Source of the DNA: a virus
Virus record (IMG/VR): IMGVR_UViG_3300030090_000196
Span: 1 to 22,835 of that record
Strand: one strand, 5' to 3'
Length of the DNA stretch: 22,835 bases
Of the stretch, positions 242 to 19,045 are shown piece after piece (the first letter of the stretch is position 1; each line of letters starts with the position of its first letter). Below the pieces are notes generated by a model that did not search any database, was not told the origin of the DNA, and saw only the letters and a program-made list of their open reading frames with translations. The position numbers and the translations under genes were made by a program.

Positions 242-1927
242 TTAATATCCAAATTCCGCATCAACGGGTGTATACGCTTGTTCCATTCTCATGTGCCTAA
301 ATTGATTAAATATGTCATTAACTTTAGGTCTTGACATAATTAAATAACGCAAAGCATCATAAGCATGATCTGGTGCATGTGTATCAACGTCTTCAGGATT
401 AGACTTATCTAATGGTATACTTTGTAGTTCGCGTATCAAGTTAGGACAACTATTAAATATTTGTATTTTAGGTCTGCCACTTGGTTGCACTCGTAAGTAT
501 TCATGTATCTGAATCTTACCCTGAATCCTATTTTTATCTGCTCTACGCAGCTTATGCCCACCTCGCTGAAGTGTTTCTCCAACTGTAGGGCCTGTTGTGC
601 CTGTCCTATTCCATGCTGATGTATCTAAGACACCTTGAACAGAAAAAGGATCTTCTAGCTCCATATTTGTAATCATCTGAGCTAGATCTACACCTGTTAG
701 TCCTTTACGGTATAGCTCTCTATAAATTATTAATGTGCCATCAGTGGGATCAACAGCGCCCCAAACACAAGCACTTTCAGAAGCATACCCATAGTCTATT
801 CCTTTTACTCGCTCCCAACCAATCGGAAGTTGGAAAGGAGCAATAACATGAAGCTCTAAATCAAACTCTGTAAATGCTGCCCCTGCTGTTATGTCCCAGT
901 TACCTTCCAAAAGTTGCTTACGCTGAACATCTGGCAAGGCTTTTAACATTTGCTCGTATCTGCCATCTGTAGATAGATACGGATTATCTTGTAGTCTGGC
1001 TGGTATAAAACGTCTTGTCAAGCCATCTGCACCTACAAAACTTTCATTAGGGGCTGATGGACTTACATAACGATTCTTTACCCATGTTGCACCAGCACCA
1101 CCGGGGTTGGCTGTACAACGCATGTATGGTGTAATTTCAGAGTCTGTAGTACGAAGCCGTGATGCTAAATAGTTCCAAGAAAACTCTGTGTTAAGATGTG
1201 TTATTTCATCAAAACCAATCCATGAGTATGCTTGACCCTGATACCTATATACATCCGCATCTCGCTCCAAAAAGCCAAACTCTAGTTTAGCCCCAGAGGG
1301 GAATGTCCAGATCTTTTCAACCTCTCTGAACTTACACCCCGGAAAAGCCTTTGGATATAACTCCCTAGACTTATCTATAAGTTCCCTGAGTTCAGGCATT
1401 GAGCGTCTTAATACTAACGCTCTGTGAGCAGCCCTATGAGCGAATCTCAGGGGATCTACGAGCATAGCATAGGACTTACCACCCCCTGCTGCGCCACCAT
1501 ACAGTACATCCGTTTCAGGAGCCGCTAAGAAATCTGTTTGCGGCCCATCATTCGGTCTAAAGATAACATTTTCTAGTGCCTCTTCCTTTACTTTTTTTGG
1601 AAGGTGGTGTATATTATCTTCAGTAAGTATCTTTCCTTCTTTAGCAGTTTCTTTATTATCTAGTTTAGCTAATGTGGATTGTGAAACTTTTAAAGTATTT
1701 TTTTGACTTTTTAATTTAGCTTCAGCTTTAGAAATAAGTTTTTCTTTTGTTCGTATAGCTCTGTTAGCTTTCATACGATTTTGTGTAGCCTTGCTATAAT
1801 TATAGCCTCTAGACTTACTACCTTTTTTACGGCCTCCTCTTTTCTTAGGAGTCCCGTCTAGTTTTAAAATGAAGTTACCATCTTCATCTTTTAAATAGTC
1901 ATCTGGATTAACTTCCCAATCGTTCAT
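242..1927 (-). CDS. terL: Terminase large subunit (DNA packaging ATPase/nuclease)
   Basis: Motor and headful/site nuclease that pumps phage DNA into the prohead. The 561-residue product has a basic, Lys/Arg-rich N-terminal extension (about residues 28-80), then an ATPase domain with Walker A GGAAGGGKS at 144-152 and Walker B WIGFDE at 236-241. The coupling stretch TANPGG follows near 272. The C-terminal RNase H-like nuclease shows its acidic residues at D378 (GIDYGYA), D435 (VLDTS) and D520/D524 (DHAYDAL). This is the usual order for terminase_6-type large subunits. The N-terminal basic extension of about 100 residues before the ATPase is longer than in many homologues. The start at ATG 1927 overlaps the preceding 78-aa gene by 20 bp and has only a weak AAGAAG ribosome site, so translational coupling is likely. 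Confidence 0.95.
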   Translation of the reverse strand: MNDWEVNPDDYLKDEDGNFILKLDGTPKKRGGRKKGSKSRGYNYSKATQNRMKANRAIRTKEKLISKAEAKLKSQKNTLKVSQSTLAKLDNKETAKEGKILTEDNIHHLPKKVKEEALENVIFRPNDGPQTDFLAAPETDVLYGGAAGGGKSYAMLVDPLRFAHRAAHRALVLRRSMPELRELIDKSRELYPKAFPGCKFREVEKIWTFPSGAKLEFGFLERDADVYRYQGQAYSWIGFDEITHLNTEFSWNYLASRLRTTDSEITPYMRCTANPGGAGATWVKNRYVSPSAPNESFVGADGLTRRFIPARLQDNPYLSTDGRYEQMLKALPDVQRKQLLEGNWDITAGAAFTEFDLELHVIAPFQLPIGWERVKGIDYGYASESACVWGAVDPTDGTLIIYRELYRKGLTGVDLAQMITNMELEDPFSVQGVLDTSAWNRTGTTGPTVGETLQRGGHKLRRADKNRIQGKIQIHEYLRVQPSGRPKIQIFNSCPNLIRELQSIPLDKSNPEDVDTHAPDHAYDALRYLIMSRPKVNDIFNQFRHMRMEQAYTPVDAEFGY

Positions 1928-2144
1928 TTATAATCTTCTTTAATCCTTGATGACTTAAACTTCTACCTGTTTTATGTTCTAGCCATGCTGATCCTTCTCG
2001 TAAACTTAATACTTGGTCTTTAACCAATACAGATATTTCTTGAAGTGCTTCTAGTTGTTCAGGAACCTCCTCAAGTAGTTTCGGATTAGTTTCTGAAATA
2101 ACGTATCCAAAAGGAATAACACTGCTACGTTTCGGAATACTCAA
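1908..2144 (-). CDS. Small protein between terminase subunits, TTG start
   Basis: A 78-residue product encoded between the two terminase genes, overlapping both by 20 bp. The only usable start is TTG at 2144-2142, preceded by AAGAAGAAG. The C-terminal part (SAWLEHKTGRSLSHQGLKKI) looks like a short helix-turn-helix: a helix, a turn at GRSLS, then a recognition-like helix. Small proteins with this pattern are found next to terminase genes in other phages, where a DNA-recognition role in packaging is plausible. Function here is inferred from position and predicted fold; the coding call itself is supported by the overlaps and tight packing. Confidence 0.7.
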   Translation of the reverse strand: MSIPKRSSVIPFGYVISETNPKLLEEVPEQLEALQEISVLVKDQVLSLREGSAWLEHKTGRSLSHQGLKKIINERLGS

Positions 2145-2511
2145 GGACTACTTCTTCTTTTGCAGGTAAAATAAACACACCACCCTGTACTGTATGATTA
2201 ACATCTAATCTATCAGTTTTACCTAGTCCAATACGATCTAATATAGTCTGAGCAGCTTGAAGTCGTACATTGGCTTGAGGAACTGGTTGATCAGAGTTCA
2301 TTACCTCAGTAAGTTTTAGTGCAGCTTGAGGTGCAGATTGCGCTAAGATATTTGACGCTAGGTCTATAATCTCATTCTTGAGTGACTTGGTAACCTGCCA
2401 ATGATTCCCAGAGTAACCTGCAAGTTCTGCTGCTTTCTTTGGATCACCTCCTACTTCTACAAGATGGCCTAGAAAACTTTGTTGTTTTTCTGTAAGTTGT
2501 TTCTTATTCAT
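2125..2511 (-). CDS. Terminase small subunit-like DNA-binding protein
   Basis: First gene of the leftward block, 128 residues from ATG 2511. The N-terminus (LTEKQQSFL... AAELAGYSG) matches the helix-turn-helix start typical of terminase small subunits, which recognise the packaging site and recruit the large subunit. The centre is helical and suited to oligomerisation (about residues 60-100). The tail ends in an acidic stretch. No Shine-Dalgarno is present. The -10 box of a strong promoter ends only 7 bp before the ATG, so the message may start at or within a base or two of the start codon. A TTG start 12 codons further upstream is possible but would sit inside the -35 box, so I prefer the ATG. 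Confidence 0.75.
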   Translation of the reverse strand: MNKKQLTEKQQSFLGHLVEVGGDPKKAAELAGYSGNHWQVTKSLKNEIIDLASNILAQSAPQAALKLTEVMNSDQPVPQANVRLQAAQTILDRIGLGKTDRLDVNHTVQGGVFILPAKEEVVLEYSET

Positions 2512-2518
2512 GTTGTAC

Positions 2519-2547
2519 AGTATAGGGCTATATTTTGTATTTGTCAA
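2519..2547 (-). promoter_or_regulatory. Leftward sigma70-like late promoter
   Basis: On the minus strand TTGACA (2547-2542), a 17-bp spacer and TATACT (2524-2519) make a near-consensus sigma70 promoter (11 of 12 positions). The predicted start point falls about at the ATG of the terminase small subunit gene (2511). Confidence 0.75.
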
Positions 2548-2559
2548 CTACTTTTTTAC

Positions 2560-2588
2560 TTGACAAACACAAAATATAACTCTATACT
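2560..2588 (+). promoter_or_regulatory. Rightward sigma70-like early promoter
   Basis: TTGACA (2560-2565), 17-bp spacer, TATACT (2583-2588): near-consensus sigma70 hexamers. The start point would be near 2595. It lies about 560 bp before the first rightward gene, so its transcript would carry a long leader containing the palindromic repeat array. Confidence 0.7.
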
Positions 2589-2665
2589 ATTTACAAGCCC
2601 ACCGGGGTTGCATATATATATATACTATAAAGCCCTGCCTAAACACTTTAGCTGCCGTGAATGGC

Positions 2666-2913
2666 ACTCCAGAGTCCCTCCTAAGTCCCGCCCTAAATCT
2701 AGTTGACACTTCAAAGTTTCTAAAATTGTATGTGAATGCTATATATATAGGGGTACCCCCACTGGCCACCTGCCCCATACTCTAGAATACTTCAGAATAC
2801 TTCTAAGTGAATCCCAAAGTAACTCCAGAGTATTCCTCAGAGGTAACTCCAGAGTAGTTTACATTCTAATGAGGACTGTGAAGTAACACTAGAGTAATCT
2901 TCTACTCCAGAAA
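2666..2913. repeat. Array of short palindromic ACTCCAGAGT repeats
   Basis: The 10-bp palindrome ACTC-CA-GAGT occurs at 2666-2675, 2822-2831 and 2846-2855. The last two are embedded in an exact 14-bp repeat, GTAACTCCAGAGTA (2819-2832 and 2843-2856), 24 bp apart. Degenerate copies lie at 2779-2788 (ACTCTAGAAT), 2883-2896 (12 of 14 matching the long form) and 2904-2913. A second unit, AGAATACTTC, is present twice in tandem at 2784-2803 and once more at 4131-4140. Short, dyad-symmetric, regularly repeated sites in a promoter region suggest operators for a dimeric regulator. Confidence 0.7.
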
Positions 2914-3061
2914 ACTACAAAGTATTTCAAAGTGTTAACTAATTTTTGCGAGGCCAGACTGCCGAGCTTTTGAGGTCAATTGAACCCCGCTTTAAATCTT
3001 CGCCTGTTTTCGCGCGGAGCCTTTGGCTCTTCACGCAGGAAAAATCACGCGCCAGATTCGG

Positions 3062-3092
3062 TTGACATTTTTCGGCAGAGCTGGGTTATAAT
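3062..3092 (+). promoter_or_regulatory. Rightward promoter before the first early gene
   Basis: TTGACA (3062-3067) and a perfect TATAAT (3087-3092) precede the gene at 3151. The spacer is 19 bp, or 18 bp if TTATAA is used, slightly longer than the ideal 17. Confidence 0.55.
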
Positions 3093-3150
3093 GTTTCGGC
3101 CGACAACGGAGCGGCAGTAAAATAAATTAACTACTTCAGGAGAAGAGTAT

Positions 3151-3459
3151 ATGAATAATTCATTTGCACAGATCGACTCAAAGCGAACCGCTACTTACAA
3201 GCAGTTTGAATTTGCAGTATATAAACTTGCGGAGGGTCTTGCGAAGAAGAAAAGAATTCCTCAAAAGATTTCTGGCAAGAGTAATCCTGCTTTCAAGATT
3301 TTGAAGGCAAGAGTTTCTGCCGCCACAGCGAAATACTACGGCGACAAAAATTCCAAGATGACTCACGGCGATGCCCAGAAGTATATATCTTCAGGAGTTA
3401 TCCCCAATGACATCTTGGCTCTAGTCAAAGACACCAAAGATCTCAAGAAGAAATCTTAA
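3151..3459 (+). CDS. Hypothetical early protein, basic, 102 aa
   Basis: First rightward gene, with a good ribosome site (CAGGAGAAGAG) before ATG 3151. The 102-residue product is Lys-rich (theoretical net positive charge) and mostly helical, with a Ser/Ala/Lys-rich C-terminus ending DLKKKS. It has its own promoter upstream (3062-3092) and its own terminator 10 bp downstream (3470-3493), so it is a single-gene unit and probably strongly expressed. Position as the first gene of the early arm is where phages often place host take-over proteins; that role is inferred, not seen. No known family recognised. Confidence 0.8.
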   Translation: MNNSFAQIDSKRTATYKQFEFAVYKLAEGLAKKKRIPQKISGKSNPAFKILKARVSAATAKYYGDKNSKMTHGDAQKYISSGVIPNDILALVKDTKDLKKKS

Positions 3460-18747: not shown

Positions 18748-19045
18748 TGAATTGATACATCTTATAAGCGTGTGGGCTATGGAGCGCGGTATAATAAACA
18801 ACAGCACACCGCTGGCACAATTTGCCAAGCTTGTATCTGAAATAGGAGAGCTAGGAGACAACATAGCTAAACAGCGAGATGTTACTGATGACATAGGAGA
18901 CTGTTTAGTGGTGTTAAACACACTAGCAATTATGAACGACACTACCTTAGAACAATGTCTAAAGGTAGCTTACAATGATATTAAAGATCGTAAAGGACAC
19001 ATGAATACGCATGGTGTCTTTATCAAAGAGGGAGATGTTGCATGA
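18740..19045 (+). CDS. MazG-like nucleotide pyrophosphohydrolase
   Basis: A 101-residue all-alpha NTP-PPase of the MazG family, which hydrolyses (d)NTPs or the alarmone-linked nucleotides to monophosphates and metal-binding Glu/Asp residues are visible: SEIGELGD (E-x2-E) and DDIGD (about residues 34-56). The ending IKDRKGHMNTHGVFIKE is typical of phage MazG proteins. ATG 18740 follows a weak GAAG; GTG 18725 and ATG 18731 are in frame but fit the family start less well. It overlaps nrdB by 4 bp, linking it to the dNTP pool. Phage MazG proteins have been suggested to tune host ppGpp or nucleotide pools; I only infer that here. Confidence 0.85.
   Translation: MSDELIHLISVWAMERGIINNSTPLAQFAKLVSEIGELGDNIAKQRDVTDDIGDCLVVLNTLAIMNDTTLEQCLKVAYNDIKDRKGHMNTHGVFIKEGDVA

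Follow-up and report, generated by a model that had tools for sequence, protein, structure and literature searches.

The window, by which we mean the whole 22,835-nucleotide stretch of DNA that was analysed (positions 1 to 22,835 of the virus record IMGVR_UViG_3300030090_000196), contains a short intergenic segment from which genes diverge. The features of this locus are given below in window coordinates.

242-1927, minus strand: terL, terminase large subunit, in the left arm (65.5% identity to the HTVC115P terminase large subunit)
2125-2511, minus strand: terS, terminase small subunit (PHROG 2538, E 5e-06)
2519-2547, minus strand: left promoter P_L, TTGACA-17-TATACT, predicted driver of terS and the packaging/structural arm
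2548-2559, no strand: 12-bp centre separating the -35 boxes of P_L and P_R (in relatives 7-97 bp)
2560-2588, plus strand: right promoter P_R, TTGACA-17-TATACT, predicted driver of the replication/metabolism arm
2595-3150, plus strand: right leader, about 555 nt, non-coding, with dyad repeats ACTCCAGAGT at 2666, 2822 and 2846
2596-2609, plus strand: predicted 5' stem-loop at the right transcript start (AGCCC-ACCG-GGGUU), weak in the window alone (z -0.46)
3062-3092, plus strand: possible second right promoter, TTGACA-19-TATAAT, with perfect hexamers, about 58 nt before the first right-arm gene
3151-3459, plus strand: first right-arm gene, encoding a 102-aa basic protein (pI about 10) whose family occurs in 99 loci

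The complete record (G000) is 49,283 bp long with 40% GC, and carries rightward genes between 3.15 and 20.2 kb (about 17 kb) and leftward genes across the remaining map. Its ends (1-1503 and 47780-49283) overlap by 1.5 kb at only 88.8% identity. This points to a circularly permuted genome whose map, about 47.8 kb, is nearly complete, and to a contig in which related strains, probably two, have been joined. TerL of the window is 64-66% identical to that of Pelagibacter phages HTVC103P, HTVC104P and HTVC115P and 44-49% identical to that of HTVC033P and HMO-2011-type phages. A related terminase and the terS-terL gene order place the phage in the HTVC103P/HMO-2011-related group, and its terS/terL, structural and replication modules are as in HTVC103P-type pelagiphages and HMO-2011-type phages. 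The GC content lies outside the range of the HTVC103P-type group III (30.8-34.0%) and inside that of the hostless group IV (31.9-44.4%) (PMC8528129). These promoters go unmentioned in the descriptions of HMO-2011-type and HTVC103P-type phages that were searched (PMC9038755, PMC8528129).

Structure of the promoter segment

The left unit (TTGACAAATACAAAATATAGCCCTATACT, minus strand 2547-2519) and the right unit (TTGACAAACACAAAATATAACTCTATACT, plus strand 2560-2588) match at 26 of 29 positions and flank a 12-bp centre (CTACTTTTTTAC). The three mismatches, at positions 9 (T/C), 20 (G/A) and 22 (C/T), are all transitions, and the 29-bp inverted repeat described in the original prediction is real. 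It is the longest local inverted repeat of the window (arms of 32 nt, 88% complementary and 6 nt apart), and the promoter segment has a fold z-score of -9.5. It is also well above chance, the best repeat with 29-nt arms in 20 first-order Markov copies of the window reaching 19-21 of 29.

Both units have the form of sigma70-type promoters, with TTGACA- and TATAAT-like hexamers matching at 11 of 12 positions and a spacing of 17 bp, inside the 16-18 bp range. Since the hexamers supply 12 of the 26 matches, the excess likeness sits in the spacer. There, 14 of 17 positions are identical between left and right; among pairs that combine left and right arms of different relatives, 0.09% reach this level.

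P_L and P_R are the only sites in the 49-kb record that match TTGACA-17-TATAMT with at most one mismatch, and their unit was found only twice in the record. At two mismatches there are 20 sites against 13 for a reversed control pattern, which is not far above it. With only two near-consensus sites and genes diverging from them, both arms are most simply read as served by one bidirectional hub. Its sequence marks the segment as a two-way hub of sigma70 type in a marine phage related to HTVC103P and HMO-2011. Searches with the exact 29-mer family pattern in viral contigs gave no matches, the promoter region showed no DNA similarity to isolate phages, and no Rfam families or tRNAs were found in the window.

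Conservation of the promoter pair

Both near-consensus promoters stand back to back upstream of terS in 199 of 205 loci with a terS relative; the 199 loci represent 119 distinct pairs and include duplicate loci and the window's own copies. Two of the other six loci are truncated contigs (L018, L269), and HTVC033P, also outside the 199, has a divergent pair with one -35 mismatch. CRP-1, CRP-3 and HMO-2011 lack the pair because their terS, unlike that of the window, sits inside a run of co-oriented genes. The same divergent pair as in the window is present in HTVC115P and HTVC033P. Every intact relative with a divergent terS therefore carries the pair, which supports the reading as two divergent near-consensus promoters, and a check for relatives that had lost one arm found none. 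Loss of the right arm was suspected in L009 and L017 and rejected, as both carry it beyond a centre of 96-97 bp.

The long centre of these two loci (3396-3505 in L009) contains an inserted palindromic element, TAACCGAACAAG...TTGTTCGGTTA, which is clearest in L009. The motif TAACCGWACA was seen in 15 of the loci compared and is absent from the window.

The geometry of the pair is variable. The centre ranges from 7 to 97 bp, and arm-to-arm spacer identity from 3 to 14 of 17, with the window at the top together with three others. Judged from these loci, near-identity of the arms is no family rule. The idea that near-identity makes a required symmetric switch is not supported, since such variation in spacer and centre speaks against a dimer of fixed geometry spanning the dyad and shows that the arms need not be identical. 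The arms themselves do not indicate flipping of the unit, as they keep their sides more often than they swap; swap-like pairs do exist. The near-identical inverted pair had also been called out of the ordinary, which holds for the degree of identity; divergent pairs themselves are common in viral contigs. Divergent phage promoters are a known kind of structure, and it is the co-evolution of the arms that is unusual.

Concerted substitutions in the two arms

Across the relatives, the spacers of a locus's own pair are more similar to each other than are shuffled pairs, and the rank correlation of this similarity with centre length is not significant. Substitutions were mapped on a FastTree phylogeny of terS codons with 108 tips. 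A substitution was scored as concerted if the same base arose at the same position on the same branch in both arms, the count being a parsimony count on a single-gene tree. There were 44 concerted substitutions against 18.5 +/- 4.3 expected with positions shuffled (0 of 3000 shuffles reached this number), and 34 against 16.5 when the window's clade was left out. Among 42 disjoint sister pairs, 16 concerted differences were found, compared with 3-8 in slid controls. On this tree, the arms co-evolve across relatives, as the original prediction had proposed checking.

The signal is strongest at spacer positions 16-23, just upstream of the -10 box (28 concerted against 8.7 expected), and weak at positions 7-15 (16 against 11). 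The flanks of the units show no co-variation (10 against 11.2 expected). The co-varying block comprises -16 to -13 plus position 5 of the -10 box. Co-variation in the -35-proximal half, positions 9-15, is confined to phages with centres of at most 14 bp, the window among them; at -16 to -13 it is still present with centres above 25 bp. The hub, its conservation and the restriction of co-substitutions to the promoter unit are direct readings of the aligned sequences.

A conserved pair with co-evolving arms favours constraint beyond the hexamers, possibly a regulator site. This speaks for the suggestion that the spacer match may mark such a site. The proposed symmetric switch, of equal strength or flipped by one protein, is supported in part only.

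Predicted transcripts and the first right-arm protein

The terS ATG (2511-2509) lies 7 nt past the -10 box of P_L, and in about 97% of 125 distinct loci it lies 6-11 nt past the left -10 box. The predicted left start falls on this ATG (about 2512-2511), which would make the left transcript essentially leaderless. This is a correction to the original prediction, whose left 5' end near 2511 would coincide with the start codon. Across relatives, a left mRNA leader of 0-4 nt is predicted.

For the right transcript, a stem-loop is predicted at the 5' end. In 68 relatives its mean fold energy was -5.9 kcal/mol, compared with -2.5 kcal/mol in shuffles, and stems of at least six pairs were present in 32 of 93 right transcripts against 4 of 93 shuffles. 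RNAalifold gave no consensus for the right leaders, probably as a result of misalignment. Between 2660 and 2935 the window's leader contains ACTCCAGAGT-type dyads plus degenerate copies, and the leaders of relatives have their own versions of the dyad, for example CTCTGGAGTA in L009. The array is possibly an origin or a protein-binding array, going by its repeat structure. Elements like the 3062-3092 site occur at a similar distance in several relatives (L004, L008, L252, L253).

The first right-arm protein of the window matched no family in Pfam or PHROG, and its relatives gave weak, sub-threshold matches only. Those relatives often have lysine/proline-rich tails, some with an AT-hook-like GRGRPKGSKNK. 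Its structure was modelled confidently as helical (pLDDT 86). A comparison with the PDB returned no match with E <0.001 (best Z 4.3), and we assign no function from the fold. By its position, its charge and the DNA-binding-like tails of its relatives only, the protein is a candidate trans-acting factor for the hub. TerS is another candidate. The search of Pfam and PHROG found no regulator beside the hub.

Discussion

We tentatively favour, at a little short of an even chance, a bidirectional hub in which one trans-acting factor contacts both spacers and thereby keeps the arms alike. P_L and P_R would both be held at consensus as host-sigma70-type promoters. P_L would yield a (nearly) leaderless mRNA beginning at the terS ATG and serve the packaging/structural arm; P_R would yield a long leader with an initial stem-loop, followed by the small basic protein and the replication/nucleotide genes. 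The factor, most likely phage-coded, would read the block from -20 to -13, which directly precedes the -10 box, and a change in one arm would be matched in the other because a single factor contacts both. Promoter activity and start sites are deduced from the sequence patterns, as are the factor itself and whether it would activate or repress. With spacer identity of only 3-14 of 17 in the family, any shared site of the factor must be short or loose. Against such a factor counts the presence of the unit only twice in the record, which is unlike a typical operator regulon. So does the -35-proximal half of the spacer, in which the window's arms match too but co-variation is limited to short-centre phages. 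HTVC115P (MN698247.1) has two further promoters, before its Hsp20 and portal genes (18832-18860 and 50898-50926 (-)), that share AGGTGTATAAT with its divergent pair, as a trans-acting factor would require.

The strongest rival is quasipalindrome homogenisation, in which DNA polymerase changes template inside the imperfect palindrome, so that one arm is rewritten from the other. The arms would then be kept alike by mutation and not by regulation, with selection preserving the hexamers only. Short inverted repeats are known to undergo both arm homogenisation and spacer inversion (PMC8604942), which counts for template switching, and the enrichment of co-substitutions drops as the centre lengthens, from 3.25 (at most 14 bp) through 2.36 (15-25 bp) to 1.92 (above 25 bp). 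The window's own right arm points the same way, as it lacks the TCTGANGC block usual in relatives and looks like a left arm. So does its centre, 10 of whose 12 positions agree with a sister clade's centre once that is inverted, although this comparison rests on low-complexity sequence. However, flanking bases inside the same palindrome do not co-vary, which argues against template switching as the sole cause, and the -16 to -13 signal persists where the centres are long. As the full explanation we consider it rather unlikely. Both causes may act together, template switching contributing the -35-proximal matches where centres are short, as in the phage of the window.

Parallel evolution under the same host sigma70 and RNA polymerase could likewise produce similar spacers next to the -10 box by co-adaptation or balancing of promoter strength, with no phage regulator. 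The co-varying block adjoins the part contacted by sigma, and both arms are the closest-to-consensus promoters of their genome. Yet in nine genomes with extra perfect promoters, these match their own genome's pair at 2.75 of 8 positions of the block and foreign pairs at 2.44, whereas the arms of the pair match each other at 5.57 of 8; other perfect promoters thus do not share the block, HTVC115P excepted. Matched strength, moreover, needs no identical bases, and we regard this explanation as quite unlikely. Least probable, and in our judgement very unlikely, is an ordinary consensus pair, derived from an old inverted duplication in AT-rich sequence, whose co-variation is an artefact of tree or alignment. 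Nearly half of the 26 matches are hexamer positions, and a slight own-pair excess (6.65 against 5.51) is also seen in viral contigs for divergent pairs unrelated to this one, but none of the controls (position-shuffled, slid, flank, sister-pair) reproduces the signal.

Carried further, the trans-factor reading would have the whole lytic phage genome run from two mirror-image host-type promoters, with a phage-specific, fast-evolving spacer site read by one putative phage factor (perhaps the first right-arm basic protein) and a late arm expressed as leaderless mRNA. We consider this extended version unlikely. HMO-2011-related phages are among the most abundant in the ocean, and the literature searched is silent on gene control in this group; a search for transcript data on these phages found none. 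HTVC027P, a pelagiphage of another group, is reported to depend on host RNA polymerase throughout (PMC12753301). A conserved two-way hub with co-evolving arms offers a precise and testable entry point to that control, and can be used to tell whether regulation or mutation makes promoters palindromic. A family-wide leaderless terS mRNA, if true, would be a striking and easily tested feature of translation, and a spacer-reading phage factor, if true, would mean a control circuit not described before, in a group of marine phages that is abundant.

Comparison with other promoter systems

In phage lambda, the divergent sigma70 promoters pR and pRM share one intergenic region and transcribe opposite arms. 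The window resembles this arrangement in that two promoters in one intergenic region feed opposite arms; it differs in its near mirror-image promoters and predicted leaderless left transcript. A lambda-type divergent operator switch does not fit the window, which has neither a repressor gene nor a set of repeated operators between its arms, no regulator by the hub in Pfam or PHROG, and just the two copies of its unit. In phage P22, Arc acts at Pant, an example of a phage operator that sits inside a promoter spacer. A comparable regulator site, lying between the -35 and -10 boxes, would explain the spacer constraint of the window; unlike at Pant, the putative site here would stand in two inverted promoters and co-evolve.

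About 12 sigma70-type promoters in both orientations lie within 5.3 kb of L189 (IMGVR_UViG_3300009108_000013), and the arrangement is also seen in L287 and L288. The L189 promoters share a core like TTGACANTGTCNCACYNGTRTGCTATACT, and six of them form three inverted pairs with 11-13-bp centres. From this layout, L189 looks like an operator-carrying promoter regulon; no phage record similar to it was found. It has in common with the window strong sigma70 promoters with a shared spacer core and inverted pairs, but repeats its unit about 12 times in 5.3 kb, compared with twice in 49 kb. The 198,785-bp record behind another locus (G018, L093) contains 39 perfect TTGACA-17-TATAMT promoters, 36 of them on one strand, and in most a TG stands one base ahead of the -10 box (extended -10).
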